This document shows, piece by piece, positions 44,783 to 63,452 of a stretch of 64,000 bases of DNA. The notes under the pieces were generated by a model that was not told where the DNA came from, did not search any database, and saw nothing but the letters and a program-made list of their open reading frames with translations. The position numbers and the translations under genes were made by a program. The DNA comes from Pseudomonas putida (GTDB taxonomy: Bacteria > Pseudomonadota > Gammaproteobacteria > Pseudomonadales > Pseudomonadaceae): assembly GCF_005080685.1 (NCBI RefSeq), contig NZ_CP039371.1:3720001-3784000 (forward strand). Reading direction: 5' to 3'. How positions within the stretch are numbered: the first letter of the stretch is position 1; the number at the start of each line of letters is the position of its first letter.

Positions 44783-44837
44783 GCATCGTCCGATAGGACT
44801 AGCGTCGCAGCCGCGTCGTGGTCCGGATGGACGATGC
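44783..44837. promoter_or_regulatory. Inverted pair of the 20-bp cluster motif in the SDR/hydrolase divergent promoter
   Basis: Read toward the SDR, the site at 44783-44802 is CTAGTCC-TATCG-GACGATGC (minus strand). Read toward the hydrolase, the site at 44818-44837 is GTGGTCC-GGATG-GACGATGC (plus strand). They are 15 bases apart. The same motif recurs at 52948-53007 (two sites), 58516-58535 and, degenerate, 63433-63452. Confidence 0.75.
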
Positions 44838-44958
44838 CGACCTGGCCCAGGCGGCAGAGGATCCAGAAACGCATACCGGGCTGGCCAGGCCTTCCCCTTC
44901 AAGCGGCTGGATGGCCTGCCCGGCGTGCCCTCACCCCATCGAGAACTGGAGAACCGGC

Positions 44959-45792
44959 ATGAACCAACCCGTCGACCTGCCCCTGCCCACTGGCCACTAC
45001 GCCACCCTGCCCAACGGCCTGCGCCTGCACTATCTGGACGAGGGCCAGGGCCCGGTGGTGCTGTGGTTGCATGGCAGCGGGCCGGGTGCCAGCGGATTCA
45101 GCAATTTCAAGGGCAACTACCCGCAGCTGGTCGCGGCTGGCTATCGCAACATCGTGCTCGACCTGCCCGGTTTCGGGCGTTCGGACAAACCCGAGGAGGT
45201 TCGTTACGAGCTGGATTTCTTCGTCGATTGCGTCGCGGCACTGCTCGACCAGATCGGCATCGACCGCTGCACCGTGCTCGGCAACTCCCTGGGCGGTGCC
45301 ATTGCGCTGGGCCTGGCGTTGCGTCGGCCTGAGCTGACGGAGCGGCTGATACTGCTGGCACCGGGTGGTGTCGAGGAGCGTGAAACCTACTTCCAGATGC
45401 CAGGCATCCTGCGCATGGTCGGGCTGTTCAATGCCGGCCCCATTGGTCTTGGTGAAATGCGCAGCATGATGAGCCTGCAACTGTTCGACGACTCGATCCT
45501 GCCCGAGGAGTTGCTGCTGGAGCGAGTGGCCGTGGCGGTGACGCAGCCGAAGAACCTGTTCAGCACCATGCGGGTGCCGAACATGCGTGCGCGGCTGGGT
45601 GAAATCGAATGCCCGATCCTCGGTTTCTGGGGCAGCAACGACAACTTCAATCCGGTCAGTGGCGCGCAGTACATCATCGATGGGGCGCGCCAGGCACGCT
45701 TCATCGTGCTCAATCGCTGCGGGCACTGGGTGCAGGTGGAGCATCGCGAGCTGTTCAACCGCAGTTGCCTGGAGTTTCTGCAGCACGGGTGA
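44959..45792 (+). CDS. Meta-cleavage product hydrolase (HsaD/TesD/BphD-like alpha/beta hydrolase)
   Basis: A 277-residue alpha/beta hydrolase with nucleophile S110 (VLGNSLGGA), acid D228 (WGSNDNF) and H256 in CGHWVQVEH, whose tryptophan is conserved in C-C bond hydrolases. HGSGPGASGFSNF near residue 38 is the typical oxyanion loop. Such enzymes hydrolyse the ring-opened product of extradiol cleavage, releasing 2-hydroxydienoate. The hydratase, aldolase and acetaldehyde dehydrogenase that finish that branch lie at 53944-56728. The extradiol dioxygenase itself is not in the window. Monocistronic, ending at a REP cluster. Confidence 0.86.
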   Translation: MNQPVDLPLPTGHYATLPNGLRLHYLDEGQGPVVLWLHGSGPGASGFSNFKGNYPQLVAAGYRNIVLDLPGFGRSDKPEEVRYELDFFVDCVAALLDQIGIDRCTVLGNSLGGAIALGLALRRPELTERLILLAPGGVEERETYFQMPGILRMVGLFNAGPIGLGEMRSMMSLQLFDDSILPEELLLERVAVAVTQPKNLFSTMRVPNMRARLGEIECPILGFWGSNDNFNPVSGAQYIIDGARQARFIVLNRCGHWVQVEHRELFNRSCLEFLQHG

Positions 45793-45809
45793 TCGAGGGC
45801 GCTGCATCC

Positions 45810-46049
45810 CTCGTGTGGGATGCGGCTTTGCCCGCGAAGCCGGCACCGTGGTGGATGGCACGGGCTTGGCCCGTGTTCGCGGGTAAACCCGCTCCTACAG
45901 GTACGGCGCAGTGGCTGAGGTCGGGCTGTATCTGCGAGGGCCTATTCGCGGGCAAGCCCGCTCCCACAGGATCTTCACCGTCATCAAGGCCAGCGCCAAC
46001 CCTGTGGGAGCGGGCTTGCCCCGCGAACACCGGCTTAGCCGGTGCCAGG
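45810..46049. repeat. REP cluster between the hydrolase and OYE genes
   Basis: The 272-base gap contains four REP-like units in alternating orientation: about 45810-45848, 45868-45902, 45944-45970 and 46001-46049. Cores include GCGGGTAAACCCGCTCCTAC and GTGGGAGCGGGCTTGCC. The last carries a second small hairpin (CACCGGCTTAGCCGGTG). No gene is seen in the gap. Confidence 0.85.
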
Positions 46050-46064
46050 CACTGCAGTGTCGGC

Positions 46065-47297: not shown

Positions 47298-47322
47298 AGG
47301 CCTTGTCCTCGGTGCAGTAGGC

Positions 47323-48963: not shown

Positions 48964-49010
48964 GCTGCTCTCCTTTGTTGTTATTGTTCTGTTCAATTCC
49001 TGGCGCACGT

Positions 49011-50618
49011 TCAGGCCTGGGCCACGAAGGCCCTGAGGTCGTTCTTGGCGACCTTGTTCGAAGGGTTCAGCGGCAGCGCCGGGAAGAACCGCACCTGGCG
49101 CGGCACCTTGTAGTTGGCCATGCGCTCGCGGCTCCAGCCGATCAGTGCCTGCTCGTCGAGTTGCTGGCCCTCGCGCAGCACCACGCAGGCACAACCGACC
49201 TCGCCCATGCGGGCATCGGCAATGCCGATCACCGCCACCTGGGCGATCGCCGGATGGGCCAGCAACGCGGCCTCGATCTCGGCCGGGTAGCAGTTGAAGC
49301 CGCCGACGATGTACATGTCCTTCAGGCGGTCGGTGATGGCCAGGTTGCCCTGCGCGTCGAGGCGACCGACATCGCCGGTGTGCAACCAGCCCTCGGCGTC
49401 GATGGCCTCGGCAGTGGCCAGCGGGTCGTCGAAATAGCCCTGCATGATGTGGAAACCGCGCAGGCAGATCTCCCCGGTCTCACCCTGGGCCACGGCACGG
49501 TTGGAGGCGTCACGGATGCTCACCTCGGTGCCTGGCAAGGGCCGCCCGCTGGTGCCGGCAATGACCTCGGCCGGGGCCTGGGGGTCGCACAGGGTGGCCA
49601 GGCCGCCACACTCGGTCAGGCCATAGGCGGTGGTGACCACGCTGAACCCCAACTCGTTGCGCATGCGCTCGATCAGGCTCGGCGGAATGCTCGCTGAACC
49701 GGTCACGGCGATGCGCAGGCTCGACAGGTCTGTCTCGGCCAGGCGTGGATGGGCCAGCAGCGACAGGTACAAGGTCGGCGCCCCAGGCAGCACGCTGATG
49801 CGCTCGCGGGCGATGCGCTGGAACACCGTCTCGGCATCGAACACCGCGTGCGGCAGGATGGTCGCCCCGGCAATCAGGCAGGTCAGCCAGCCGGCCTTGT
49901 AGCCAAAGGCATGGAAAAACGGATTGACGATCAGGTAGCGATCGCCCGGCACCAGCCCCAGCACCCGCACGTACTCGGAGAACGCACGCAGGTTCTGGCC
50001 ATGGGCGCTCATCACGCCCTTGGGCTTGCCGGTGGTGCCGGAGGTGAACAGCAGGTCGCAGATGGCCTCGGGCTGGATGCTCAGGGCACGGCGCTCGGCG
50101 GTGAGCTTCTCGACGGTCGCAGCGCCGAGCAGAAAGCGCTCGTAGCTAAGGTCCTGCGCGCCAGGCTCCTGGTCGCAGGCGAAAATCACCTGGTGCTCCA
50201 GGGTCGCCGGGCGATGCGGGGCGAGCAACGCCGGGTAGTCGACGTCCAAAAAGCGCTGTTGCACGAACAGCACCCGGCAACCGCTACGGCCCAGCACGTC
50301 GGCGGCTTCAGCGCCCTTCATGCGGGTGTTGACCGGCACCAGCACGACGCCGGCGCAGTGGATACCCAGTGCCGCGAGAATCCACTCACGGCCGTTGGGC
50401 GCCCACAGGCCGACCCGGTCGCCCGGCTGGATGCCCAGCGCCATCAAGGCACGGGTGACCTGTAGCACATGGGCCGGAAGATCGGCGTAGTCCAGGCGCT
50501 CGCCGTTGTCCTCGATGGCAGCATGGCCGGCGAAACGCCGGGCACTGTCGAACAGCAGACGGGCAATGGTGGCAGGCGCGCAGGCCTGTGCGTCGAAGGC
50601 ATTGAGGATCGGGTTCAT
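49011..50618 (-). CDS. Acyl-CoA synthetase (FadD3-like AMP-forming ligase)
   Basis: A 535-residue ANL-superfamily ligase. The P-loop-like LLFTSGTTGKPKGVM, the adenine motif TTAYGLTECGG, the GWLHTGDVG hinge region with the D, and the C-terminal lysine in NPSNKVAKNDLR are all present. Start uncertain: ATGs at 50639, 50633 and 50618 are in frame; 50618 (MNPILNAF) has GTGAG six bases ahead. In steroid-degrading actinobacteria FadD3 activates the C/D-ring propanoate remnant. The setting here (HsaA-, KshB- and HsaD-like neighbours) suggests the same or a side-chain activation role. Confidence 0.84.
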   Translation of the reverse strand: MNPILNAFDAQACAPATIARLLFDSARRFAGHAAIEDNGERLDYADLPAHVLQVTRALMALGIQPGDRVGLWAPNGREWILAALGIHCAGVVLVPVNTRMKGAEAADVLGRSGCRVLFVQQRFLDVDYPALLAPHRPATLEHQVIFACDQEPGAQDLSYERFLLGAATVEKLTAERRALSIQPEAICDLLFTSGTTGKPKGVMSAHGQNLRAFSEYVRVLGLVPGDRYLIVNPFFHAFGYKAGWLTCLIAGATILPHAVFDAETVFQRIARERISVLPGAPTLYLSLLAHPRLAETDLSSLRIAVTGSASIPPSLIERMRNELGFSVVTTAYGLTECGGLATLCDPQAPAEVIAGTSGRPLPGTEVSIRDASNRAVAQGETGEICLRGFHIMQGYFDDPLATAEAIDAEGWLHTGDVGRLDAQGNLAITDRLKDMYIVGGFNCYPAEIEAALLAHPAIAQVAVIGIADARMGEVGCACVVLREGQQLDEQALIGWSRERMANYKVPRQVRFFPALPLNPSNKVAKNDLRAFVAQA

Positions 50619-50638
50619 GCAAGGCTCACTCATCGGCA

Positions 50639-51661
50639 TCACTCGGGAAAGCGGATCCGCAGCAGCGGGCTGGTGGGCACGGCCTGGCACGCCAGGATCC
50701 AGCCTTCGGCCAGCTCGGCGGCATCCAGGGCATCGTTGTGCAACAGCTCGACATCACCGCTCTCCAGGGTGCACATGCACGACGCGCAGCCGCCAACCCG
50801 GCAGGCGCTGGGTGGGTTGAGGCCGGCGCGCTGCATGGCGTCGAGCAGCGTCTCGCCGCTGGCGCAGTCCAGGCTGTGGTCGGCGCCGTCCAGGCGTACC
50901 GCCAGTTTCGCCGCCATGGCCGCCTCGCTCTGGCTCGCCTGCGCCAGCTCGCCCTCGGCAGGCAACGACACGAAGCGCTCCACGTGGACCCGGGCACTGG
51001 GCATGCCGAGGCTGGCCAGGGCCTGCACGGCGGCATCCATGAACGGCGCCGGGCCGCAGATGAAGGCCTGGGCATCGAGCAGCGGCCGCGCCAGTTCGGC
51101 CAGTTGCGTCACGCTCGGCACGCCTTGCAAAGAGTCGAGCCAATGCACCACCTGCAGGCGTTGCGGGTGAGCCGAGGCCAGCATGCGCAGCTCGTCGCGG
51201 AAGATCACCGAGTGCTCGTCGCGGTTGGCGTAGATCAGCAGCACCCGCCCCTGCCCGGCCAGCAGCGCCGAACGCAGGATCGACAGCACCGGCGTCACCC
51301 CGCTGCCACCGCCGAACAGCAGCAGGTCGCCCTGCAGGTCACGGGGCACGAACACCCCGGCCGGCGGCAGTACTTCCAGGGTCTGGCCTTCCTGCAATTG
51401 CTCGCACAGCCAGTTCGAAGCGCGGCCGTCACGCACGCGCTTGACGGTGACTCGTAGCGGTTCATCGAGCAGCGGCGTGCTCGACAGCGAGTAACAACGC
51501 GGCAACCAGCCGCCCTCGAATGGCACCCGCAAGGTCAGGAACTGGCCCGGCTTGTAGTGAAAGCGCTCGGCCAGTGACGCAGGCACCTCGAACACCAGCG
51601 AGCGGGCGTCGGCGGTTTCCTCGATCACCCGCGCCACGCGCAAGGCAAGATAGTCATTCAT
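50639..51661 (-). CDS. Ferredoxin reductase-like protein (KshB-like FAD/2Fe-2S reductase)
   Basis: A 340-residue reductase: FAD site RCYSLSST (about 55), NAD site GGGSGVTPVLSILR (about 113), and a C-terminal plant-type ferredoxin domain with CRVGGCASCMC and a final Cys in LACQA. The order FAD-NAD-FeS is that of KshB and PaaE. KshB feeds the Rieske oxygenase KshA in 3-ketosteroid 9-alpha-hydroxylation; no KshA is visible here. An alternative is electron supply to the HsaA-like enzyme 27 bases upstream, although that class normally uses free reduced flavin. Confidence 0.86.
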   Translation of the reverse strand: MNDYLALRVARVIEETADARSLVFEVPASLAERFHYKPGQFLTLRVPFEGGWLPRCYSLSSTPLLDEPLRVTVKRVRDGRASNWLCEQLQEGQTLEVLPPAGVFVPRDLQGDLLLFGGGSGVTPVLSILRSALLAGQGRVLLIYANRDEHSVIFRDELRMLASAHPQRLQVVHWLDSLQGVPSVTQLAELARPLLDAQAFICGPAPFMDAAVQALASLGMPSARVHVERFVSLPAEGELAQASQSEAAMAAKLAVRLDGADHSLDCASGETLLDAMQRAGLNPPSACRVGGCASCMCTLESGDVELLHNDALDAAELAEGWILACQAVPTSPLLRIRFPE

Positions 51662-51687: not shown

Positions 51688-52875
51688 TCAGACGAACGGG
51701 TCCGGATTGGGCAGGCCCAGCTGCACCGCACCGAAACTGCGCCCGTAGGCCATGAAGTTGTTGGCGATATGCCCGCGTGCCTGGTGCAGGTCACGGAACA
51801 ACCGCGCCACCGGGTTGCTGTTGTACAGCCCGGAAGCGGCCATGCTGCGCAACAGGTCGCTGATGCGCTCGGCACAGATGTTGGTGACGTAGGACGACTG
51901 GTAGCGGTACAGCAGGCGCGTCTCGGTGTCCGGGTACTCGCCGGCACGAGCCAGTTGCATCAAGTGTTCGTAGTTGCGTTCGAGCACCAGCTTCAGGCTG
52001 TCGACGGTGATCACCGCCTCGGCCACCGCCGTTTGCGCGACCGGGTCGTCGGCGGTGCGCGCGCCGTGCTTGCCGATATGCTGGGCCGCGTTGTCGCGGA
52101 AGGTATCGATGGCCCCCTGCAGGGCACCGATCGCCGAGGTGGAGACTGCACGGGAGAACACCTGGGCGAACGGAATCGCGTAGATCGGGTTGGTGTTCAC
52201 CAGGCGCCCCGGCGTCGCTTCGATCTGCCAGTTGTTGGTGCGCTGCACGCGGTGGGCCGGGACGAAAGCATCCTCGACCACAATGTCGTGGCTACCGGTG
52301 CCACGCAGGCCGAGCACATCCCAGTTGGGCTCGATGCGGTAGTCGGCACGTGGTAGCAGGAAGGTGCCATGCTCGCTGGCGAAGTCGCCATCGGCCGGGA
52401 GGATGCCGCCGAGCAGCACCCACTGGCAATGCTCACTGCCACTGGAAAAACCCCAGCGCCCGCTGATGCGATAGCCCCCGGGTACCACGCTGACCCTGGC
52501 CGCAGGCATATAGGTCGAGGAGATCAGCGCGCCATGGTCCTGTCCCCAGACCTCGCGCTGCGCCTCGATCGGGTAGCGCGCCACTTGCCAGGGATGCACG
52601 CCCATCACGCCATAGACCCAGGCGGTCGACATGCAGCCCTCGGCGAGGATCATCTGGATTTCGAAAAAGGTCCGCGGATCGACTTCGTAACCGCCGAAGC
52701 TGCGCGGCTGCAGGGCGCGCAGCAAGCCAGCCGCCTGCAGCTCCTCGATGGTCTGGTCGGGGATGCGCAAGTCACGCTCGGCCTGGGCCGCGCGGGCCTT
52801 GAGCTGCGCCACCATGCCCCGCGCACGTTCGATCAGTTCGACTTCTTCCTGGGTCTTTTCTCGCAAGCTGTGCAT
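51688..52875 (-). CDS. Flavin-dependent monooxygenase oxygenase component, HsaA/TesA2-like
   Basis: A 395-residue protein with the acyl-CoA dehydrogenase fold used as a group D monooxygenase. Matching HsaA are LQPRSFGGYEVDPRTFFE, STAWVYGVMGVHPWQVA, ISSTYMPAARVSVVPGGYRI, WGFSSGSEHCQWVLLGG and LGLRGTGSHDIVVEDAFVPAHR. HsaA hydroxylates 3-HSA, the phenolic secosteroid, to the catechol 3,4-DHSA before ring cleavage, using FADH2 from HsaB. No HsaB-like reductase is visible here. The ATG at 52875 has GGAGA upstream. First gene of a five-gene operon with the 20-bp motif in its promoter. Confidence 0.85.
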   Translation of the reverse strand: MHSLREKTQEEVELIERARGMVAQLKARAAQAERDLRIPDQTIEELQAAGLLRALQPRSFGGYEVDPRTFFEIQMILAEGCMSTAWVYGVMGVHPWQVARYPIEAQREVWGQDHGALISSTYMPAARVSVVPGGYRISGRWGFSSGSEHCQWVLLGGILPADGDFASEHGTFLLPRADYRIEPNWDVLGLRGTGSHDIVVEDAFVPAHRVQRTNNWQIEATPGRLVNTNPIYAIPFAQVFSRAVSTSAIGALQGAIDTFRDNAAQHIGKHGARTADDPVAQTAVAEAVITVDSLKLVLERNYEHLMQLARAGEYPDTETRLLYRYQSSYVTNICAERISDLLRSMAASGLYNSNPVARLFRDLHQARGHIANNFMAYGRSFGAVQLGLPNPDPFV

Positions 52876-52947
52876 CACTGGTCTCTCCCGGTCTCGCTGC
52901 GCCACTGCGCGAGCTGGGATCGATCATCGGGTCGCCCAGGCGATCGT

Positions 52948-53007
52948 TCATCGTCAAAGCGGACTAGGGCCCGCAGGGCCTGGCGCGCTAGTCCGTTGAG
53001 ACGATGC
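52948..53007. promoter_or_regulatory. Inverted pair of the 20-bp cluster motif in the HsaA/SDR divergent promoter
   Basis: Toward the HsaA-like gene: CTAGTCC-GCTTT-GACGATGA on the minus strand at 52948-52967. Toward the SDR at 53082: CTAGTCC-GTTGA-GACGATGC on the plus strand at 52988-53007. The spacer is 20 bases. The proximal edges are 72 and 74 bases from the two start codons, an almost symmetrical arrangement. Confidence 0.8.
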
Positions 53008-53081
53008 TGACGGGCGGCGCCACCGCCATAGTCGGCTCCATCGACAGCGCTGATAACAGAGCCCTAAAAGGAGGTACCGTC

Positions 53082-53855
53082 ATGAGTATCCTGCAGCGAT
53101 TCCGACTCGATGGCAGCGTGGCCATCGTCACCGGCAGCGGACGTGGCATCGGCCGGGCGATTGCCCTGGCGTACGCCGAGGCCGGCGCCGATGTGGTCTG
53201 CGCCGCGCGCTCACTGGACGATGTCCAGGCGGTGGCCGAGGAAGTCCGGGCCCTGGGCCGCAATGGCCTGGCCTTCGCCTGCGACGTCAACGACAGCGAA
53301 CAGCGCCAGGCGTTGGTGCGCCAGAGCCATGAGCACCTGGGCCGCATCACCCACCTGGTCAACAACGTCGGCGGCGGTGGCCCCAACGACCCGCTGGGCC
53401 TGAGCCCGGAGCAATTCGACGAAATCTTGCGCTTCAACGTCTCCAGTGCGTATGCGTTCTGCCAGCTGTGCGTGCCGCTGATGCGCGATGCCGGTGGCGG
53501 CAACATCGTCAATATCAGCTCGGTGGCTGCCCGCTACTCGCAGCGCCACTTCAGCGCCTACGGCACGGCCAAGGCGGCGCTCAGCCACCTGACCCGTCTG
53601 CTGGCCCAGGATTTCGCGCCGCAGGTGCGGGTCAACGCCGTGGCTCCAGGCCCGACCCTAACTGCCGCGCTGAACAGCGTGATGCCAGCCGCCATGCGCC
53701 AGACGATGGAGGCCAACACCCCGCTCAAATGCCTGGGCAGCCCCGAAGACATCGCTGCCGCCGCGCTGTACCTGGCCAGCCCCGCCTCGGCCTGGGTCAC
53801 CGGCAAGATCATCGACGTCGACGGTGGCGCCGACTCCAGCGTCTGGGTCGGCTGA
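53082..53855 (+). CDS. SDR family oxidoreductase, 7-alpha-hydroxysteroid dehydrogenase-like (HdhA-like)
   Basis: A 257-residue SDR led by a near-perfect ribosome site (AAAGGAGGT, 53067-53075). TGSGRGIGRA binds the cofactor; S146/S147, Y160 and K164 form the active site (YGTAK). NNVGGGGPNDPLG closely parallels the NNAGGGGPKP block of E. coli HdhA, and the segments TLTAALNSVMPA, ANTPLKCLGSPEDIAAAALYLASPASAWVTGK also track it. HdhA oxidises the 7-alpha-hydroxyl of bile acids, so a hydroxysteroid substrate is a reasoned guess. First gene of the operon running to 56728. Confidence 0.83.
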   Translation: MSILQRFRLDGSVAIVTGSGRGIGRAIALAYAEAGADVVCAARSLDDVQAVAEEVRALGRNGLAFACDVNDSEQRQALVRQSHEHLGRITHLVNNVGGGGPNDPLGLSPEQFDEILRFNVSSAYAFCQLCVPLMRDAGGGNIVNISSVAARYSQRHFSAYGTAKAALSHLTRLLAQDFAPQVRVNAVAPGPTLTAALNSVMPAAMRQTMEANTPLKCLGSPEDIAAAALYLASPASAWVTGKIIDVDGGADSSVWVG

Positions 53856-53943: not shown

Positions 53944-54750
53944 ATGAAGAGCTCCGTCATGGACGCCCATCTGATCACAGCGCTCGGTGACGAGCTGTTC
54001 AACGCCCTGCGCGGCCGCCATACCGTGCAACCGCTGACCCAGCGTTACCCAGACCTGACCCTCGAGCAGGCGTACCGCATCTCGCTGGCCTTCCTTGAGC
54101 GTCGCGAAAGCCTGGGCGAGCGCGTGGTCGGCAAGAAGATCGGCGTGACCAGCCCCGCCGTGCAGGAAATGCTCGATGTGCACCAGCCAGATTTCGGATT
54201 TCTCACCGACGCCATGCAGGTGGAGGACGCCAGCGCGGTCAGCCTGTCCCGGCACCATCTGATCCAACCCCGCGCCGAAGGCGAAATCGCCTTCATCCTC
54301 GCTGAGGACCTGCACGGCCCGGGGATCAGCGCCGAAGACGTGCTGGCCGCCTCCCAGTGGGTGATGCCCTGCTTCGAGATCGTCGATTCGCGCATCGACA
54401 ACTGGCAGATCCGCATCCAGGACACCGTCGCCGACAACGCCTCGTGCGGCGTGTTCGCCCTGGGCCAGCAACGCGTCGACCCGCGCACGTTGGACCTGGC
54501 CAAGGTACAGATGCAACTGCTGAAGAACGGCGAGCCGGCTGGCAGCGGCCTGGGTTCGGCGGTGCAAGGCCACCCGTGCGCGGCGGTCGCGTGGCTGGCC
54601 AACACCCTGGGCGAGCTGGGTATCCCGTTCCGGCGTGGCGAGATCATTCTTTCCGGCGCCCTCGCGCCTCTGGTGCCGGTCACCGCCGGTGACCGCATCA
54701 GCCTGAGCATGAGCGGGTTGGGCCAGTCCAGTCTGCGCTTCGTGCCCTGA
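53944..54750 (+). CDS. 2-keto-4-pentenoate hydratase (HsaE/TesE/MhpD-like)
   Basis: A 268-residue hydratase of the FAH-like superfamily: LTLEQAYRISLAFLERRESLGERVVGKKIGVTS at about 40-70, the metal-binding PRAEGEIAFIL (glutamates) at about 102, CFEIVDSRI at about 142, and GHPCAAVAWLANTL near 215. It hydrates 2-hydroxy-dienoates to 4-hydroxy-2-oxoacids after C-C hydrolysis by an HsaD-type enzyme. The product is cleaved by the aldolase at 55706. The gap of 88 bases after the SDR contains a T-run but no strong terminator. Confidence 0.88.
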   Translation: MKSSVMDAHLITALGDELFNALRGRHTVQPLTQRYPDLTLEQAYRISLAFLERRESLGERVVGKKIGVTSPAVQEMLDVHQPDFGFLTDAMQVEDASAVSLSRHHLIQPRAEGEIAFILAEDLHGPGISAEDVLAASQWVMPCFEIVDSRIDNWQIRIQDTVADNASCGVFALGQQRVDPRTLDLAKVQMQLLKNGEPAGSGLGSAVQGHPCAAVAWLANTLGELGIPFRRGEIILSGALAPLVPVTAGDRISLSMSGLGQSSLRFVP

Positions 54751-54771
54751 CTTTTCCGTGGAGCCATGAAC

Positions 54772-55695
54772 ATGAGCAAGAAGATCCGATGTGCATTGAT
54801 CGGGCCGGGCAACATCGGCACCGACCTGCTGTACAAACTCAAGCGCAGCGAGGTGCTGGAACCGGTGTGGATGGTGGGCATCGAGGCCGCCTCCGAAGGC
54901 CTGGCGCGCGCCCGCGAACTGGGCCTGAAAACCACCGCCGAGGGCGTCGACGGCCTGTTGCCGCATGTGCTGGAGGACAACATCCAGATCGCCTTCGATG
55001 CCACCTCGGCCTACGTGCATGCGCAGAACAGCCAGAAGCTCAACGCCCTGGGCGTGCTGATGATCGACCTCACCCCTGCGGCCATCGGCCCCTACTGCGT
55101 GCCGCCGGTCAACCTCAAGGCCAACCTGGGGCTGGGGGCGATGAACGTCAACATGGTCACCTGCGGCGGCCAGGCGACCATCCCGCTGGTGGCCGCGGTG
55201 TCCAGCGTGCAGTCGGTGGCCTATGCCGAGATCATCGCCACTGCCGCGTCGAAATCGGTGGGCCCGGGCACGCGCAAGAATATCGACGAGTTCACCCGCA
55301 CCACCGCCAGTGCGGTGGAACAGGTGGGCGGCGCCCGGCAGGGCAAGGCGATCATCATCATCAACCCCGCCGAGCCACCGCTGATCATGCGCGACACCGT
55401 GCACTGCCTGACCGACGACGAACCGGACCAGGACGCGATCCGCGCCGCCCTGCAGGCGATGATCGAGCAGGTGCAGCGTTACGTGCCGGGCTACCGCCTG
55501 GTCAACGGGCCGGTGTTCGACGGCAAGCGCGTGTCGATCTTCATGGAGGTCGAAGGCCTGGGTGACTACCTGCCGCGCTACGCCGGCAACCTCGACATCA
55601 TGACCGCGGCCGCGGCGCGTACCGCCGAGCTGTTCGCCGAGGAAATCATCAAAGGCGAGCTGCTGCTGCGCCCTACCCCTACCGCCCTGGCCTAA
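54772..55695 (+). CDS. Acetaldehyde/propanal dehydrogenase, CoA-acylating (HsaG/TesF/DmpF-like)
   Basis: A 307-residue enzyme with NAD site [16 protein letters not shown], catalytic cysteine in [14 protein letters not shown] (about 130) and [24 protein letters not shown] near the C-terminus. I start at the ATG at 54772 because GGAG (54760-54763) is eight bases away; another ATG lies six bases earlier but too close. It converts the aldehyde released by its aldolase partner to acyl-CoA; the two form a channelling complex. In steroid degradation the product is propanoyl-CoA, in aromatic pathways acetyl-CoA. Confidence 0.9.
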
Positions 55696-55705
55696 GGAGC
55701 CGACC

Positions 55706-56728
55706 ATGGACCTTTCCGGCAAACGCATCACCGTACACGACATGTGCCTGCGCGACGGCATGCACCCCAAGCGCCACCAGATCAGCCTCGACGAAATGCA
55801 GCGCATCGCCTGCGGCCTGGACGCCGCCGGGGTGCCGCTGATCGAGGTGACCCATGGCGATGGCCTGGGTGGCAGCTCGGTCAACTATGGGTTCCCGGCG
55901 CACAGCGACGAGGACTATCTGTCGGCAGTCATCCCGCTGATGAAGCAAGCCAAGGTCTCGGCACTGCTGCTGCCGGGTATCGGCACGGTGGAGCACTTGA
56001 AGATGGCGCACGGGCTGGGTGTCAGCACCCTGCGCGTAGCCACCCACTGCACCGAGGCCGACGTCAGCGAACAGCACATCGCCCATGCCCGGCACCTGGG
56101 CATGGACACCGTGGGTTTTCTGATGATGGCGCACATGAACAGCCCGCAGGGCCTGGCCAGCCAAGGCAAGCTGATGGAAAGCTATGGCGCCAACTGCATC
56201 TACCTGACCGACTCGGCCGGCTACCTGCTGCCGCATCAGGTCAGCGAACGGGTGACGGCAATGCGTGCAGCGCTGCGCCCGGAGACTGAAATCGGCTTCC
56301 ATGGCCATCACAACCTGTCGATGGGCGTGGCCAACTCGATTGCCGCGATCGCTGCCGGTGCCAGCCGCATAGACGCCGCCTGCGCAGGGTTGGGTGCCGG
56401 GGCCGGGAATACCCCGATGGAAGTGTTGGTGGCGGTGTGCAAGCGCATGGGCATCGACACCGGGGTGGATGTGTTCGCCATCCAGGACGTGGCCGAGGAC
56501 CTGGTAGTGCCAATCATGGACTTCCCCATCCGCAGCGACCGCGATGCGCTGACCATGGGTTATGCCGGGGTGTATGGCTCGTTCCTGCTGTTCGCCAAGC
56601 GCGCCGAGCAGAAGTATGGGGTGTCGGCGCGGGAGATCCTGGTGGAAATGGGCCGGCGCGGGATGGTCGGCGGGCAGGAGGACATGATCGAAGACACTGC
56701 CATGACATTGGCCAAGCGCCGGGCCTGA
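55706..56728 (+). CDS. dmpG: 4-hydroxy-2-oxovalerate/2-oxohexanoate aldolase (HsaF/TesG/DmpG-like)
   Basis: A 340-residue DRE-TIM metallolyase: [15 protein letters not shown] with the catalytic arginine and metal aspartate, [16 protein letters not shown], and [16 protein letters not shown] with the metal histidines, plus a C-terminal helical domain that contacts the dehydrogenase. It splits 4-hydroxy-2-oxoacids into pyruvate and an aldehyde. Starts 10 bases after the dehydrogenase stop. The gene symbol follows the aromatic-pathway name; in a steroid pathway it would correspond to HsaF/TesG. Last gene of its operon, followed by a REP hairpin. Confidence 0.9.
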
Positions 56729-56739: not shown

Positions 56740-56838
56740 CGCGGGTAAACCCGCTCCTACAGTCACAGCGGTATTCTGCAGAACCTCGCTGTTCCTGTAG
56801 GAGCGGGTTTACCCGCGAACACGGGCGAAGCCCGTGCC
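56740..56838. repeat. Inverted REP pair between convergent operons
   Basis: A 23-bp perfect inverted repeat with arms at 56740-56762 and 56795-56817. The right arm continues into ACACGGGCGAAGCCCGTG, a second small hairpin. It fills the gap between the aldolase (+) and SDR (-) stops and may act as a terminator or mRNA stabiliser for both. Confidence 0.9.
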
Positions 56839-56850
56839 ACCCACCTCGGA

Positions 56851-57684: not shown

Positions 57685-57696
57685 TTGCGATCCTTG

Positions 57697-58464
57697 TCAG
57701 AAACGCGGCGCACGCACCATCGCGTCCATGCCGCCATCGATGAAAACCACGCTGCCGTGGACGAACTGCGCCTGCTCGGACTGCAGGAACCCCACCAGCG
57801 CGGCGATTTCCTCCGGGCGCCCGGCACGGCCCAGTGGCGCGACGAATTCGCGCACCGCCTTGCCGAAGCGGGCATCGTCCAGCGATGCCTGGTGCAGCGG
57901 CGTCTGCACTGCACCCGGCGCCACCACGTTCAGGCGCATGCCACGTTGCCCCCAGGCCAGGGCCAGGCTGCGGGCATGCTGGGTAATGGCGTATTTGGAA
58001 CAGGCGTATGCCACATGCGGCTGGCCCAGGCTGTCGGCCAGGTCCAGCGCGCGGGCCTCATCGCCCTCGAGCATCGCCGCCGTCATCGCCTGTTGCTCGG
58101 CCCCAGGCTGGGTGGCGGCCACCGAACCAATCACCAGCGCCGCGGGGTTGCGACCGCGTTCCAGCGCGCCCTGCAATCCGTCGAGCAACTGGCTGACGCC
58201 AAAGTAGTTGACCGCCACGATCAAGCCGCAGGACGGCGCGGTCACGCCGACCCCGGCGCAGCAGACCAAGCCGTCGAGCACCCCGCCGCTGCGTTCGAGC
58301 ACCTCGGCAATCGCTGCCGACCGCCCTTGCGCAGTCGATAGATCAGCCTGCACCTCGGCATTGGCGCGGTCGATTCCGATCACCTCATGGCCTGCCGTGC
58401 GCAACAACGCGGCAACCGCCGCCCCAATGCCCGAGGCACTGCCCGTGATAGCTGTAACAGACAT
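57697..58464 (-). CDS. 3-alpha-hydroxysteroid dehydrogenase/carbonyl reductase (HsdA-like SDR)
   Basis: A 255-residue SDR with GSASGIGAAV at the cofactor site, S114, Y153 and K157 (YACSK). The sequence parallels Comamonas testosteroni 3-alpha-HSD/CR as I remember it: GIDRANAEVQADLSTAQGR, VLDGLVCCAGVG, VAVNYFGVSQLLDGLQ and the tail FVHGSVVFIDGGMDAMVRAP. HsdA interconverts 3-alpha-hydroxy and 3-keto steroids with NAD and starts androsterone and bile-acid breakdown in that organism. This is the most specific steroid marker in the window. Its promoter carries the 20-bp motif at 58516-58535. Confidence 0.85.
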   Translation of the reverse strand: MSVTAITGSASGIGAAVAALLRTAGHEVIGIDRANAEVQADLSTAQGRSAAIAEVLERSGGVLDGLVCCAGVGVTAPSCGLIVAVNYFGVSQLLDGLQGALERGRNPAALVIGSVAATQPGAEQQAMTAAMLEGDEARALDLADSLGQPHVAYACSKYAITQHARSLALAWGQRGMRLNVVAPGAVQTPLHQASLDDARFGKAVREFVAPLGRAGRPEEIAALVGFLQSEQAQFVHGSVVFIDGGMDAMVRAPRF

Positions 58465-58515
58465 AATCGATCTCCAGGATAGGTCCGCCAGTATCGGCAG
58501 ACCGCGAACGCGCCG

Positions 58516-58535
58516 GCATCGTCCTTGCGGACTAA
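58516..58535 (-). promoter_or_regulatory. 20-bp cluster motif upstream of the HsdA-like gene
   Basis: On the minus strand the site reads TTAGTCC-GCAAG-GACGATGC, ending 51 bases from the start of the HsdA-like gene (58464). Same order and orientation relative to the gene as the sites at 44783, 44818, 52948 and 52988. Confidence 0.75.
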
Positions 58536-58556
58536 GGCCGACGCCCGGGCCAGGGC

Positions 58557-59786
58557 TCAGGCACGGCGCGCGACCGCCAGTTGCGGCAGCGGCACCTTGA
58601 GCCGCTCGGGCGCCTTGAGCGCGACCTTCGGCTTGCCCAAGGCGACCACGCTGTTGAGCAGGATCCGCACCAGTTCGGTCTGCCGACGCACGCCGGTCTT
58701 GGAGAAGATCGAACGCAGGTGCGCCCGCGCCGTGTTGCGCCGGATGTTCAGCTCTTCGGCGGCTTCTTCCAGCGACAAGCCGTTGGCCAGTTCCATGGCC
58801 AGTGCGGTTTCCGCGCGGGTCAGGTTGAACAGCTGCTTGGTCACCACCTCGCTGGCCAGCGATTTGCTCGCCGCGTCGCGGATATACACCAGCGCCGCCG
58901 GCTTGCCGCGCTCGTCGGCCCAGTCCAGCGAAGGGATCGATTCCACCACCAGGCCCAGGTTGACCAGCCCAGACGGCCGCGTCACCGACATGGCTTCGGC
59001 GCTTTTCGGCGCATCGGCGGAAAACGCCGCGCGGATCAGCCGCTGCAGCTCACGGTTGTCGCTCGGGTAGGTTGCCTCGAGACGCCCGCCGACCAGTTTC
59101 AGGCCGTCGCCACTGCCCAGGATCTCCTGGGCCACCGGGTTGACCCGCAACACGCTGCCGCTCTCGTCGAGCACCAGGGTAGCCACCGACAGGCGGCTGA
59201 TGGCCTGGGAATACAGCTCGCTGAGCGACTCGCTGCGGTCGAGCAGGTTGTGCACCTGCATGGCCCGGCGCAGGTGCGGCAGGAACATGCCGCACAACGC
59301 GCGTTCGGCGGGCGAGAAGTTGGGCGCCCGTTTGGGCCGGGTCACACGAAAGCGCAGCTTGCCGCCGTCCGGGGTGGAAATGTCGGCGCCCATCACGTGG
59401 TACACGTCCTGCTGGTTGCAGAACATCTTGAAGTAGGCGCTGCGCTCCCATTCCTCTGGCGTCAGTATGTCGTCGACCGTGAACACCTGGTCGGGCGGCT
59501 GGTTGGCGAATGGCGTATTGGTTTGCGGATAGGTCATGTAGCCGATCTCGCCGGCCCCTTCGATATCGCCGGAGATGATCATCACGCCCATGTCCGGCTG
59601 ATCCGGTACGCGCAGGATCAAGGTCACGTAGTTGGCGTCATACAAGGTGCGAAAGCTGGTCAGCGCACGGGCCATCAGCTTGGGGTCGAGGGCGCCTTCA
59701 TAGATTTCACCGACCAGGCGGTCGAAGGTCGCCAGGTCGCAGCCGAGGCTGGCCAGTGCTTCATGGGTCAAGACAGCTTTTTCCAC
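58557..59786 (-). CDS. LuxR-family regulator with PAS-like domain (TeiR-like), probable cluster regulator
   Basis: A 409-residue regulator. GTG at 59786 is the likely start, with GGAGA just upstream; the frame extends 23 codons further without support. Residues about 1-190 form a sensor-like region. About 205-300 resemble a PAS domain (LSVATLVLDESGSVLRVNPVAQEILG). The C-terminal 65 residues are a LuxR HTH (LTRAETALAMELANGLSLEE, then LNIRRNTARAHLRSIFSKTGV). TeiR, the testosterone-inducible activator of C. testosteroni, has a comparable PAS-LuxR layout. Placed between the HsdA-like gene and the MMPL gene, it is the best candidate to bind the cluster's 20-bp motif. Confidence 0.83.
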   Translation of the reverse strand: MEKAVLTHEALASLGCDLATFDRLVGEIYEGALDPKLMARALTSFRTLYDANYVTLILRVPDQPDMGVMIISGDIEGAGEIGYMTYPQTNTPFANQPPDQVFTVDDILTPEEWERSAYFKMFCNQQDVYHVMGADISTPDGGKLRFRVTRPKRAPNFSPAERALCGMFLPHLRRAMQVHNLLDRSESLSELYSQAISRLSVATLVLDESGSVLRVNPVAQEILGSGDGLKLVGGRLEATYPSDNRELQRLIRAAFSADAPKSAEAMSVTRPSGLVNLGLVVESIPSLDWADERGKPAALVYIRDAASKSLASEVVTKQLFNLTRAETALAMELANGLSLEEAAEELNIRRNTARAHLRSIFSKTGVRRQTELVRILLNSVVALGKPKVALKAPERLKVPLPQLAVARRA

Positions 59787-59902
59787 AGTCTTCTCCTCGC
59801 TCGGGTAAGGCAGTGGCCTTCCCTTGTTATTTTTATAGTTTCGGCTCTGGGGCAATGGCCCGGGTGCTGCTTGCGATGTACGCGGCCCAGTCTCGCTGGC
59901 CG

Positions 59903-59941
59903 CCCTGGCGCCGACAATAGGGGCGCCAGGGTTTATTTTTT
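59903..59941 (+). terminator. Intrinsic terminator on the plus strand, opposite to its neighbours
   Basis: CCCTGGCGCC (59903-59912) pairs with GGCGCCAGGG (59922-59931) across 9 bases and is followed by TTTATTTTTT (59932-59941) on the plus strand. Both flanking genes, LuxR-type and MMPL, run on the minus strand. The U-tract would therefore end antisense transcription rather than the MMPL transcript. The rest of 59787-59942 shows no gene. Confidence 0.75.
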
Positions 59942-59942
59942 A

Positions 59943-62345
59943 TTACCGGATGTCTCCTTCCATCGCGCCCGCCAGCACCGGCCTCGGCGCCGTCTGGCGG
60001 GCGACCAACGGCCGCCCTCGGTTGAACCAGGCCGCCAGTGCCGGCAGCAGGAAAATCGCCCCGAGCACGTTGACCAGGAACATGAACGACAGCAGCACGC
60101 CCATGTCGGCCTGGAACTTCAGCGGCGCGAAGGCCCAGGTACAGACGCCGATCGACATGGTCAGGGCGGTGAACACGGCGGCGGTGCCACGCTGACACAT
60201 GGCCAGGTAGAACGCCTCGCGCAGGCTGGCGCCGGCAGCCATCTCGTGCTGGATGCGCTCGTACAGGTAGATGCCGTAGTCCACCCCCACCCCGACGCCC
60301 AGGGCCATCACCGGCAGGGTCGCGACCTTGAGGCCGATGCCAAGCATGGCCATCAACGCGTTGCACAGGATCGCCACGATCGCCAGCGGCACCAGGATGC
60401 ACAGCACGGCGCGCAGCGAAAGAAAGGTCAACCAGCAGAACAGCGCCACCGAGCCGAACAGCGCCGCCAGCATGATCACCTCGGCGCGCTTGACCGCTTC
60501 GTTGGACGCTGCCATGACGCCAACATTGCCGCCGGCCAGGAGGAAGTCGACCTTCGGCGTGCGTACATCGTCGATGATGCGTCGGGCTTCACCGATGGCA
60601 TGGCTGATGGTCGCGCCTTCGTGGTCGGCGAGAAACACCAGGATCTGCATCTGCTGGCAACCCTCGGTCACCAACCCATCGTCCGGCATGTAGGCCCGTG
60701 CGCCCTGGCTCAAGCCGCGGGCCGAACCCGGGATCGCCGCCCAGCGCGGGTTGCCCTCGTTGTTGCCGGCGATGACCCGCTTGCCCATGCCGGCCACGCT
60801 TTGCACCGACTGCACACCCGTCACTGCGCGCATGCGGAAGTCGAAGGCCTCCACGGCCCGCATCACCTCTGGCGACAGGCAGCCTTCCTCGATGCCCTTG
60901 ACCTCGACGAACACCGACAGCACGTCCAGGCCGATCGAGTAGCTGCCGATGATCCGTGCGTTGTCCTGGTTGTAGCGCGAATCGCTGCGCAGCTCCGGCG
61001 CGCCGGCGCCGATATCGCCCACCGCCAGTTCACGCGCTTTCCAGGCCCCGGCCACGAGCAACGCCAGGCTCACCGCGAACACCGCCAGCGCCGGGCCCGG
61101 CTCGGCCAACGCCGACAGCCGCCACCACAGGCGATGGCGCCCCGCCTCGCGAGCCTGGGCGCGTTGCAGCGTGGCCGGTTCCAGGCGCAGCCAGGAGAGA
61201 ATGATCGGCAGCATCAGCTTGTTGGTGACGATCATCAGCATTACACCGATGCACGCCGTCACGCCCAGTTCATGCACGATCGGGATGTCGATCAACATGA
61301 TCACGGCAAAACCCAGCGCGTTCATCAGCAGCGCCAGCGAGCCGGGGATGAAGATCTTGCAGAACGCCGAGCGCGCCGCCTGCTGGGCGCTGGCCCCGGC
61401 CACCACGTCCTGCTTCCAGGCATTGGTCATCTGCACCGCATGGGACACGCCGATGGAGAAGATCAGGAACGGCACCAGGATCGACATCGGATCGATGCCC
61501 AGCCCCAGCAGCGGTAACAACCCCAGCAGCCATACCACCGGCAGCAAGGCCACCACCAGGGCGACCAGGGTCAGGCGCCAGGAACGGGCGTACAGCCACA
61601 ACAGCAACGCGGTGATGACGAAAGCGATGAAGAAGAAGCCGATCACCGTGTTCAGCCCCTCCACCACATCACCGACCAGCTTGGCGAAGCCGACGATGCT
61701 GATCTCGATGTCGGCGCTGGCGTATTTGTGGCGCAGCTCCTCCAGGCGCTTGGCGACCTCGACGTAATCCACCGGCTTGCCAGTCTGCGGGTCGATGTCC
61801 TGCAGATCGGCTCGCACCATCGCCGACTTCAGGTCATTGGCGATCAGCCGGCCGATCTGCCCCGAGGCTGCGGCGTTGCTGCGCACCTGAGCCAGGTCTT
61901 GCGGGCTGCCGTTGAAGCGTGGCGGCACCACCACGTCGCCGTAGAAGCCTTCCTCGGTGATTTCGATGTAGCGCACGTTGGCGGTGAACAGCGAGGTCAC
62001 GCTGGCCCGGTTGACCCCGGAAATGAAGAAGACGTCGTCGGTGACCTTGCGCAGGGTATCGAGGAATTGCGGGTTGTACAGGTCGCCCTGGCCCTTCCAG
62101 CGCACGCTGACGAGAAAGCGGTTGGCCCCGGTGAAGTACTGGCTGAAGCGCAGAAAATTGACCATGTAGTCATGGCGTACCGGGATCTGCTTGTTGAAGC
62201 CGGGGTCGAGCTGGGTGTGGGTCGCGCTATAGCCCAAGCCCAGGGTCAACAGCACGAACAGCAACAGCAGGCCTCTGCGGCCCTTCATCAATGCATTGGC
62301 GGTGGCCTCGACGCAGCGAGCGCTCCGGGTCTGTGCTTTTTTCAT
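59943..62345 (-). CDS. MMPL/RND-family transporter
   Basis: An 800-residue protein with two RND-type halves, each a first helix, a large periplasmic loop and a five-helix bundle, twelve helices in all. The first bundle contains DPMSILVPFLIFSIGVSHAVQM and the second VGVGVDYGIYLYERIQHEM, the GxxxD-type proton-relay helices of MMPL proteins. ATG at 62345 (MKKAQTRSARC) chosen; the open frame extends into the next gene. Such proteins accompany DUF1302 and YCF48-like proteins in clusters for hydrophobic substrates, and transport of steroids or lipids is suspected. Co-transcribed with the YCF48-like gene (10-base gap). Confidence 0.86.
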   Translation of the reverse strand: MKKAQTRSARCVEATANALMKGRRGLLLLFVLLTLGLGYSATHTQLDPGFNKQIPVRHDYMVNFLRFSQYFTGANRFLVSVRWKGQGDLYNPQFLDTLRKVTDDVFFISGVNRASVTSLFTANVRYIEITEEGFYGDVVVPPRFNGSPQDLAQVRSNAAASGQIGRLIANDLKSAMVRADLQDIDPQTGKPVDYVEVAKRLEELRHKYASADIEISIVGFAKLVGDVVEGLNTVIGFFFIAFVITALLLWLYARSWRLTLVALVVALLPVVWLLGLLPLLGLGIDPMSILVPFLIFSIGVSHAVQMTNAWKQDVVAGASAQQAARSAFCKIFIPGSLALLMNALGFAVIMLIDIPIVHELGVTACIGVMLMIVTNKLMLPIILSWLRLEPATLQRAQAREAGRHRLWWRLSALAEPGPALAVFAVSLALLVAGAWKARELAVGDIGAGAPELRSDSRYNQDNARIIGSYSIGLDVLSVFVEVKGIEEGCLSPEVMRAVEAFDFRMRAVTGVQSVQSVAGMGKRVIAGNNEGNPRWAAIPGSARGLSQGARAYMPDDGLVTEGCQQMQILVFLADHEGATISHAIGEARRIIDDVRTPKVDFLLAGGNVGVMAASNEAVKRAEVIMLAALFGSVALFCWLTFLSLRAVLCILVPLAIVAILCNALMAMLGIGLKVATLPVMALGVGVGVDYGIYLYERIQHEMAAGASLREAFYLAMCQRGTAAVFTALTMSIGVCTWAFAPLKFQADMGVLLSFMFLVNVLGAIFLLPALAAWFNRGRPLVARQTAPRPVLAGAMEGDIR

Positions 62346-62355
62346 GAATCGCCTC

Positions 62356-63324
62356 TCATTTGCCCAGCGTGGCAAGGTCGCCCTCGCTGGCATCGAATAC
62401 CCCTTGCTCACCACCCAACAGCAGCCGTGACCCCACCATGGCCGCCGACGTCAACGTGCCGTGCCCGGCCAGGCGCTTGGCGTCGATCCGTTCGCCACGG
62501 GCATCCAGTCGCACCAGCGAGCTGCCAGCGCCGACGATCAGCAACCCGCCACCCGGCAGGCGGACATGGCCGTAGAGCGGTAGCGCGTTCCCGACCTCGA
62601 CCTGGCGCCAGTGCGTGCCGAAGTCGTGGCTGACGAATACATGCCCGCGCATGCCGTAGGTCACCCAGTCGTCGTCGCTCAGGCGCACGATGCCGAACAG
62701 CGAGCCGCTGTAGAACGCCGGCAGAGCCTGCCACTGCGCGCCACCGTCGGTACTGCGCAGCACCAGGCCCTGCTCGCCGACCAGCATGCGCCGGCCTGCC
62801 GCGTCGCCGTCCATGCCGTTGAGGTGGGCGCTGTCGATCTCCAGCGCCAGTGGCCGCCAGGTCGCCCCCGCGTCGTCGGACTGATAGAACTTGCCGAAGC
62901 TGCCATAGGCCAGCACCCGCTCGGCGCCTGCCGCCCACACGCCCAGCAGCGGCTCGCCGAGCTGGTCATCGTGGCGCACTTCGCGCCAGTGCCGGCCGGC
63001 ATCGTCGGAACGCAGGATCCAGCCATCGTGCCCAACCGCCAGCAGGCGCTTGCCGTCGAGCGCCACCAGGGCGGTCAGCGCGACCTGGCGTTGTGGCTCG
63101 ACCACCGCCGCTTGCCAGCTCCTGCCCTGGTCGTCGCTGAGCAGGATGCTGCCGCGCTCGCCCACCGCCAGCACGCGCTGGTCGAGGTCGAGCAAGGCAT
63201 TGATCTGCACGCGGTCGGCGCGCAGGGGATCATCGGCGGGCAAGGCATCGGGATGGGGCAGAAAGGTAAACACGATGGTCAGGCCCACGAACAGGCAGAC
63301 CAGGTAACCGATCACCGAGCGCAT
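62356..63324 (-). CDS. YCF48/BNR-repeat-like protein with N-terminal membrane anchor
   Basis: A 322-residue protein. The N-terminal hydrophobic segment (VIGYLVCLFVGLTIVFTFLP, about 4-23) acts as anchor or signal. The remainder is a beta-propeller-like series of repeats of the form W(R/Q)xxx, ILLSDDQGRSW, ILRSDDAGRHW, FYQSDDAGATW, VLRSTDGGAQW and FVSHDFGTHW. The SxDxGxxW pattern defines BNR/YCF48 repeats. ATG at 63324 has GGGAG eight bases ahead. Function in these clusters is unknown; it is regularly paired with MMPL and DUF1302/DUF1329 proteins. Confidence 0.83.
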   Translation of the reverse strand: MRSVIGYLVCLFVGLTIVFTFLPHPDALPADDPLRADRVQINALLDLDQRVLAVGERGSILLSDDQGRSWQAAVVEPQRQVALTALVALDGKRLLAVGHDGWILRSDDAGRHWREVRHDDQLGEPLLGVWAAGAERVLAYGSFGKFYQSDDAGATWRPLALEIDSAHLNGMDGDAAGRRMLVGEQGLVLRSTDGGAQWQALPAFYSGSLFGIVRLSDDDWVTYGMRGHVFVSHDFGTHWRQVEVGNALPLYGHVRLPGGGLLIVGAGSSLVRLDARGERIDAKRLAGHGTLTSAAMVGSRLLLGGEQGVFDASEGDLATLGK

Positions 63325-63432
63325 GGGCATCGCTCCCGATCGAGGTGCAGGTACAACGCAACCATGGAACCGTTCCTCTTGTTCTTGTCGGGCGGGGGGC
63401 ATGGGGGATAGTCGGACGGGGGCGCGCGGGAA

Positions 63433-63452
63433 ACATCGTCCAAATGGCTTAA
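63433..63452 (-). promoter_or_regulatory. Degenerate copy of the 20-bp cluster motif before the YCF48/MMPL operon
   Basis: The minus strand reads TTAAGCC-ATTTG-GACGATGT, keeping GACGATG and the spacing but with a weaker left half. It ends 108 bases before the YCF48-like start, in the expected orientation. Confidence 0.5.

Follow-up and report, generated by a model that had tools for sequence, protein, structure and literature searches.

A spaced dyad at fixed distance from a -10 element as the putative operator of TeiR-like PAS-LuxR regulators in steroid-type gene clusters of Pseudomonas putida

Introduction

How the separate operons of a steroid-type gene cluster might be switched on together is the question raised by a 64,000-nucleotide stretch of the Pseudomonas putida contig NZ_CP039371.1, bases 3720001-3784000 of this 6.5-Mb contig and hereafter called the window, from a genome of 6.61 Mb. 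A preliminary description of the window had drawn attention to a 20-base motif, YTAGTCC-N5-GACGATGC, in front of several of these operons, and had proposed it as the activator site of the PAS-LuxR regulator encoded in the cluster. The analyses presented here support this proposal in silico, through specificity and co-occurrence, as a predicted binding: the motif is, with high probability, the direct operator of the TeiR-like PAS-LuxR activators of the same cluster, named here REG1 and REG2. What is observed in its favor comprises the site itself, its orientation and spacing, its genomic specificity, its co-occurrence with the regulator and the conservation of the helix-turn-helix.

Results

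A motif search of the window recovered all six sites of the preliminary description at the same coordinates and in the same orientations, with the GACGATGC end proximal to the gene at every site. When mismatches were counted against the consensus given above, it proved exact in three of the six sites, and the remaining three showed 1, 2 and 3 mismatches, the last being the copy at 63433-63452 that had been called weaker. The sites lie, in map order, 61, 121, 72, 74, 51 and 102 or 108 bp from the start codon of the gene they precede, so that four of them (61, 72, 74 and 51 bp) do fall in the range of 51-74 bases first reported. The six sites are as follows:

44783..44802, minus strand: operator copy 1, CTAGTCCTATCGGACGATGC, 0 mismatches, putative promoter of the SDR gene 43987-44721
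44818..44837, plus strand: operator copy 2, GTGGTCCGGATGGACGATGC, 2 mismatches, putative promoter of the alpha/beta hydrolase gene 44959-45792
52948..52967, minus strand: operator copy 3, CTAGTCCGCTTTGACGATGA, 1 mismatch, putative promoter of the acyl-CoA dehydrogenase gene 51688-52875
52988..53007, plus strand: operator copy 4, CTAGTCCGTTGAGACGATGC, 0 mismatches, putative promoter of the SDR gene 53082-53855
58516..58535, minus strand: operator copy 5, TTAGTCCGCAAGGACGATGC, 0 mismatches, putative promoter of the SDR gene 57697-58464, directly behind the regulator gene
63433..63452, minus strand: operator copy 6, with a weak left half, TTAAGCCATTTGGACGATGT, 3 mismatches, putative promoter of the BNR - MMPL - regulator group

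Where two genes diverge from one intergenic region (44783/44818 and 52948/52988), each of them has a separate site. At up to three mismatches the window holds 11 matches against 3.04 expected, a number reached in 0 of 100 shuffles; at up to two mismatches the search leaves only five of the reported sites, and the 19-base core (first base dropped) gives a further 2-mismatch match at 24789, within a predicted gene.

The site was found to be an imperfect inverted repeat, TAGTCC-N4-GGACGA, followed by TG. In an alignment of 93 non-redundant sites (<60% identity over site and flanks), drawn from 145 sites with up to two mismatches that, exceptions apart, were not deep in predicted genes, TAGTCC, a 4-base spacer and rGACGATG are conserved, and dyad pairing amounts to 0.61 at centre 8.5 as against 0.14-0.36 at 20 other centres tried. 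The earlier view of the site as non-palindromic has therefore to be abandoned, and the inverted repeat of short half-sites that characterizes LuxR/NarL-type operators is present here, though imperfect. The same alignment, whose sites were selected without regard to any -10 element, has an A in position 40 and a T in position 44, as is characteristic of a -10 hexamer. The pattern NANNNT, with the hexamer starting at 38-40, occurs behind 13 of 13 sites of the own genome (a set that leaves out the weak site 63433) and behind 89 of the 93 non-redundant sites, compared with means of 0.9 and 8.8, respectively, at other offsets, and behind 2 of 21 chance look-alike sites of the own genome. It is to this element that the fixed spacing runs, and not to the start codon, for which a near-fixed distance had been claimed. 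Each of the six window sites is followed by such a hexamer, at offset 39 in five and 40 in one:

44758..44763, minus strand: -10-like hexamer AATGAT of copy 1, dyad centre at about -42.5
44857..44862, plus strand: -10-like hexamer GAGGAT of copy 2, at the fixed offset behind the dyad
52923..52928, minus strand: -10-like hexamer GATGAT of copy 3, at the fixed offset behind the dyad
53027..53032, plus strand: -10-like hexamer CATAGT of copy 4, at the fixed offset behind the dyad
58490..58495, minus strand: -10-like hexamer GATACT of copy 5, dyad centre at about -43.5
63408..63413, minus strand: -10-like hexamer GACTAT of copy 6, at the fixed offset behind the dyad

With the transcription start taken 7 bases behind the hexamer, the fixed -10 spacing puts the predicted dyad centre at -42.5 in five window sites and at -43.5 in one. 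No consensus sigma-70 promoter was called at any of the six, nor was a -35 box recognised. Class II activators such as LuxR bind at about -42.5, as known for the lux box. On predicted start sites, the arrangement (dyad near -42.5, a -10 element and no good -35 box) is that of a class II activator, for which a centre near -41.5 to -42.5 is expected. A site at -42.5 also overlaps the -35 region, where repressors act as well, and REG1 or REG2 might instead block RNA polymerase until relieved by a steroid signal; in C. testosteroni, a hydroxysteroid dehydrogenase is reported to be under a LuxR-type repressor. This we regard as very unlikely, since without a recognisable -35 box there would be little basal promoter to repress, TeiR/TesR is reported as a positive regulator, and P. 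stutzeri Chol1 degraded cholate and grew with a delay once a TeiR-like gene had been deleted (unpublished data, cited in PMC8399759).

Specificity was then assessed in the whole genome. The composite of dyad and -10 element, TARNCYNNNNRGACGATGN{20,22}ANNNT, has 10 matches in the 6.61 Mb, all 10 of them in two steroid regions and the weak site 63433 included, against 1 match for its reversed control. The pattern does not capture copies 44818 and 52948 of the window, nor two sites in the second region, as their letters deviate from it. Because the pattern was shaped on such sites, its matches are not independent evidence; its absence elsewhere in the genome is, and on this in-silico point the proposal withstands the refutation that the preliminary description had set, an equal motif frequency in unrelated intergenic regions. 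Of the six exact 19-mers in the genome, three lie in the window, two just right of it (3795230 and 3809004) and one in the second locus (2477464); sites with 0-2 mismatches number five more within 43 kb to the right of the window and three in the second locus, near 2.477-2.481 Mb. Elsewhere, four 19-mer matches with one mismatch were found, three within predicted genes and one not. At up to two mismatches the 19-mer is matched 118 times and its reversed control 81 times, so that the loose motif is unspecific, and specificity arises at 0 mismatches or once the -10 element is added. The window shuffles, the motif counts in the own genome and the specificity of the composite led us to reject a chance origin of the sites.

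The second steroid-type locus (genome C1:2474334-2484935, in L034) holds a flavin reductase, an MFS transporter, an amidase and a KstD-like gene. Two of its three sites are letter-identical to the window sites 52988 and 52948, and a sigma-70-family (ECF-like) gene (L034:8625-9134, minus strand, genome about 2473624-2474133) lies some 3.3 kb from the sites of this locus.

Across 298 Pseudomonas genomes, the strict composite used for counting was TAGTCYNNNNRGACGATGN{20,22}ANNNT, and homologues were accepted at E up to 1e-30 for the regulator, 1e-40 for KshA and 1e-70 for an AraC-type gene discussed below. Both the composite (reversed control in 4 genomes) and the regulator homologue occur in 52 of the 298 genomes, with 51 shared, one motif-only, one regulator-only and 245 with neither (Fisher p = 2.6e-55); the 51 shared genomes contain 299 composite copies, at least three each, and the 246 regulator-negative genomes a single one, in a genome (G161) with one composite and no regulator. 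The scan of related Pseudomonas proposed earlier thus shows the composite tracking the PAS-LuxR gene. A KshA homologue is likewise found in 52 genomes, 51 of them with the regulator, so that composite, regulator and KshA mark the same genomes. As a weaker marker, the exact 19-mer alone appears in 35 of the 298 genomes (reversed control 8), 26 of which have the regulator; among the nine that lack it, with one site examined in each, eight sites lie within a predicted coding region, and in the ninth genome (G271) the nearest downstream gene is 2,356 bp away. As a held-out test, a matrix derived from the 13 own sites was run on 20 genomes, taken from the 26 that have the regulator but no exact 19-mer, with the -10 hexamer scored at three offsets. 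The 20 regulator neighbourhoods gave 125 matches, 116 with a -10, and 20 control regions gave 15, one with a -10; these matches are not independent, given the close kin among the genomes and the possible counting of one dyad on both strands. At least one match carrying a -10 was present in 19 of the 20 regions, the exception being the genome G225 (L168), whose regulator has the differing recognition helix NTARTHLR.

Two regulators are candidates for reading the site:

58557..59786, minus strand: REG1, PAS-LuxR (TeiR-like) regulator and proposed binder, GerE domain above the Pfam cut-off, longer TTG start possible at 59855
genome 3809041-3810216: REG2, paralogue of REG1, GerE domain (PF00196) above cut-off

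REG2, 58% identical, is the one close paralogue of REG1 in the genome. Both match PF00196 (GerE/LuxR helix-turn-helix) above the curated cut-off, and neither gave a Pfam match to a kinase domain or to the receiver domain of a NarL-type two-component regulator. The PAS match of REG1 remains below the Pfam (E 0.0006) and NCBIfam cut-offs, its PAS part gives sub-threshold NCBIfam matches to histidine kinases (E 0.03 and 0.08), and no PAS match was obtained in REG2; a search by sequence found no relative in the PDB. The helix-turn-helix of the two proteins is 90% identical, compared with 51% in the sensor part, and the same asymmetry is seen in regulators of other bacteria, with DNA-binding and sensor identities to REG1 of 97/57% in Thauera, 93/47% in Vibrio and 76/39% in Binataceae. 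In 26 of the more distant regulators compared, the 58-residue helix-turn-helix is 53-97% and the sensor 29-65% identical to REG1. The segment RRNTARAHLR is nearly constant in close regulator groups, and a Sphingobium plasmid regulator reads KRNTARAHLR, with NTARAHLR kept. With DNA-binding domains so nearly identical, REG1, REG2 or both may bind the site. The in-cluster PAS-LuxR protein singled out earlier thus gains from specificity and co-occurrence as a candidate, with the correction that there are two paralogues and not one.

Another regulator of the cluster might read the site, the PAS-LuxR gene being a mere neighbour: an AraC/GbdR-like gene (41412-42410) lies in the cluster near copy 1, the sigma-70-family gene lies close to the second-locus sites, and two co-inherited regulators are indistinguishable by co-occurrence alone. 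We consider this highly improbable, since the AraC gene occurs in 5 of the 298 genomes and, of the 52 genomes that carry the strict composite, in only two. Short dyads with a spacer, such as this site, are moreover what LuxR/NarL-type helix-turn-helix dimers read, and among the main-cluster genes scanned (part of the cluster, with Pfam or NCBIfam) only REG1, REG2 and the AraC gene matched transcription-regulator families. The AraC regulator itself was rejected as binder on its rarity.

The genes that the sites precede, together with their neighbours, are:

43987..44721, minus strand: SDR dehydrogenase, target of copy 1, by domain search
44959..45792, plus strand: alpha/beta hydrolase, target of copy 2, by domain search
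51688..52875, minus strand: acyl-CoA-dehydrogenase-fold protein, target of copy 3, by domain search
50639-51661: ferredoxin-reductase-like gene, behind the 51688-52875 gene
49011-50618: FadD3-type ligase gene, behind the 51688-52875 gene
53082..53855, plus strand: SDR dehydrogenase, target of copy 4, by domain search
53944..56728, plus strand: 2-oxopent-4-enoate-hydratase-like (below cut-off), acetylating acetaldehyde dehydrogenase and 4-hydroxy-2-oxovalerate aldolase (above cut-off) genes
57697..58464, minus strand: SDR dehydrogenase, target of copy 5, by domain search
59943..62345, minus strand: MMPL/RND-type transporter gene between the BNR gene and REG1, below NCBIfam cut-offs
62356..63330, minus strand: BNR/YCF48-type gene, first behind copy 6, start at 63330 or 63324

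Beyond its SDR gene, copy 4 probably also serves the genes that follow, for the hydratase, the acetaldehyde dehydrogenase and the aldolase. The site-bearing regions further hold DUF1329 and acyl-CoA dehydrogenase genes, and the KshA, KstD and HsaC-type enzymes of a steroid (9,10-seco) cluster are found in or beside the cluster: a KshA_C-domain protein (PF19298) above cut-off, a match to the 3-oxosteroid 1-dehydrogenase model (E 7.7e-175, below the curated equivalog cut-off) and one to the HsaC model (E 4.7e-81, below the equivalog cut-off and level with the biphenyl-diol dioxygenase model).

The weak site 63433 heads the group BNR - MMPL - REG1, and a like site at 3813696 heads BNR - MMPL - REG2. 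Since the gap between the MMPL gene and the regulator measures 156 bp for REG1 and 60 bp for REG2, an own promoter for the regulator genes is possible, above all for REG1. Both sites have a distinct left half (TAAGCC and TAACCC) that recurs in related promoters; elsewhere, sites with TAAGCC, TAGGCC, TAACCC or TAATCC and with GGACGATG kept precede the BNR homologue in L122, L124 and L152 and, where the caller named the next gene so, the MMPL homologue in L102, L109 and L111; for the gene called next in L116 and L127, no cluster match was obtained. The altered left half possibly marks a feedback subtype of lower affinity. Just upstream of the weak site, at 63480-63700 of the window, there are several near-identical GTAGGAGCGG...CCGCGAACACCGG extragenic repeats, which we take to be REP-like.

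In loci of named species and of other Pseudomonas, the genes behind the site are homologues of the SDR and acyl-CoA dehydrogenase genes of the window and of BNR, KshA, KstD, flavin reductase, HsaC and DUF1302 genes, and the site mostly lies 50-110 bp upstream of their called start. A looser TMGTCY form of the composite was searched genome-wide in five genomes, with 0 matches of the reversed control in all five: Thauera butanivorans has 12 matches, all on two contigs, P. jinjuensis six on two contigs, Serpens gallinarum five on one contig, and for the genome G521 ten are listed, two of which overlap. In a Thauera locus, too, sites stand in front of steroid-type genes. The fifth, a Candidatus Binataceae genome, is taken up in the Discussion; near its regulator there are two intergenic sites with 1-2 mismatches. 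A Caballeronia plasmid carries an exact site 61 bp upstream of an acyl-CoA dehydrogenase homologue and, in front of an HsaC homologue, one with a single mismatch, and on a Cupriavidus plasmid a 1-mismatch site precedes a KstD homologue. In Vibrio alfacsensis, where the genes were taken from the record's own annotation as the GC3-based gene caller performed poorly, sites with 1 and 2 mismatches precede coding sequences annotated as acyl-CoA dehydrogenase and electron transfer flavoprotein. The Sphingobium sp. TomTYG64 plasmid (L264 14610-14628) carries a 2-mismatch site with a -10, TAGTCTCTTCGGACGAAGC, 53 bp before a gene annotated as 3-ketosteroid-9-alpha-monooxygenase, an alphaproteobacterial occurrence that possibly widens the range of the operator. 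In the locus of a Novosphingobium pNL2 relative, with the regulator helix AHNTAKVQLR, no site with a -10 was found; the contrast comprises this one pair, and pNL2 possibly holds no steroid cluster at this locus. A class-wide protein search (E up to 1e-50) detected the regulator in only two of 369 genomes, the own one and G521.

Recent horizontal transfer of steroid clusters could also account for the conservation, without selection on the site, and would agree with the identical site letters in both loci of the own genome and with the patchy presence of the regulator across species (52 of 298). We find this extremely improbable, because the sites precede different, non-homologous genes, are kept where the flanks differ (the 93 sites with <60% identity over site and flanks) and where the cluster proteins are only ~40-60% identical, and keep the -10 spacing too.

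Discussion

Taken as the operator of REG1 and REG2, the site suggests the following mechanism, in which binding, activation, transcription start, ligand and autoregulation are predicted. A regulator dimer would bind the imperfect dyad TAGTCC-N4-GGACGA about 42.5 bp upstream of the predicted start, where it would substitute for the missing -35 box and recruit sigma-70 RNA polymerase to the -10 element at fixed spacing, in class II fashion. The signal, presumably a steroid or a catabolite, would be sensed by the PAS-containing part. In response, the operons for ring and side-chain degradation, together with envelope-type genes (DUF1329, BNR, MMPL), would be switched on, and the weaker, conserved variant of the site would drive the gene groups encoding the regulators, resulting in positive feedback.

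Several observations weigh against this interpretation. Since KshA is present in 51 of the 52 regulator genomes, and co-occurs about as well as the regulator, co-occurrence by itself points to steroid catabolism and cannot name the binding protein. The genome G225 has a regulator (36% identical) and a KshA homologue (45%) and no composite, and its regulator neighbourhood no matrix match with a -10; a changed operator may be in use there. The Binataceae genome has 0 TMGTCY matches and no exact composite, and in Burkholderia arboris only sites with at least two mismatches were found. Among 65 other genomes of Thauera's order, the TMGTCY composite occurs in 13, one site each (reversed control 0); 12 of the 13 matches are of the TCGTC form, and those genomes were searched for the composite only, so that either this form is unspecific outside clusters or these order-mates of Thauera hold something else. 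Finally, published work, as relayed by reviews, describes Comamonas TeiR as a polar membrane kinase, a property that the operator model does not need.

A wider generalization can be put forward tentatively, as a serious possibility towards which we do not yet lean: one operator and one regulator family may run steroid catabolism across Alpha-, Beta- and Gammaproteobacteria, with the PAS-LuxR protein itself as a steroid receptor inside the cell. Much like the nuclear receptors, of which it would be the bacterial counterpart, it would bind its ligand and activate promoters directly, with no membrane kinase cascade.

The literature covered on TeiR-like regulation was PMC8399759, PMC6678751, PMC13101464, PMC6895838, PMC8700777, PMC4810484 and PMC5715377. 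Within the literature searched, which left subscription journals mostly outside, no operator for TeiR-like regulators is described, and a search for the motif letters returned nothing relevant; to that extent the earlier statement that the operator is undescribed holds. A statement cited in PMC6895838 confines tesR-like genes to C. testosteroni; by contrast, REG1 homologues, defined by homology to REG1 and not to TeiR, are present in 52 of the 298 Pseudomonas genomes, and a KshA homologue accompanies them in 51. With an operator of fixed promoter geometry defined, TeiR-like proteins could be tested directly for action at DNA versus the reported kinase route. The operator would also make regulon members predictable in other genomes, the strict composite having one match in the 246 regulator-negative Pseudomonas genomes, and it may lend itself as a promoter part to biosensors for steroids and bile salts.

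Among known systems, LuxR-type class II activation shares the dyad in place of a -35 box and the fixed spacing to the -10 element, and LuxR with its lux box differs in the dyad letters and in having an acyl-homoserine-lactone domain instead of the PAS-containing sensor. TeiR/TesR of Comamonas testosteroni is, like REG1, a LuxR-type regulator inside a steroid cluster with an expected positive role; it is reported as a membrane-associated kinase, whereas REG1, a putative member of the TeiR/TesR family, has no Pfam kinase or receiver match and only the sub-threshold NCBIfam matches of its PAS part to histidine kinases. The ACTU motif of CrbR in Pseudomonas acetate genes, (PMC5715377) was likewise discovered by comparative genomics as an imperfect inverted repeat read by a LuxR-family protein, but it has other letters, and CrbR is a two-component response regulator, unlike REG1 with no receiver domain detected. 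The KstR and KstR2 proteins of Actinobacteria are TetR-type repressors; bile-acid-degrading Proteobacteria are said to lack homologues of them (PMC8399759). What the actinobacterial steroid regulons share with the present case is a single family of operators in front of the steroid-catabolic operons.

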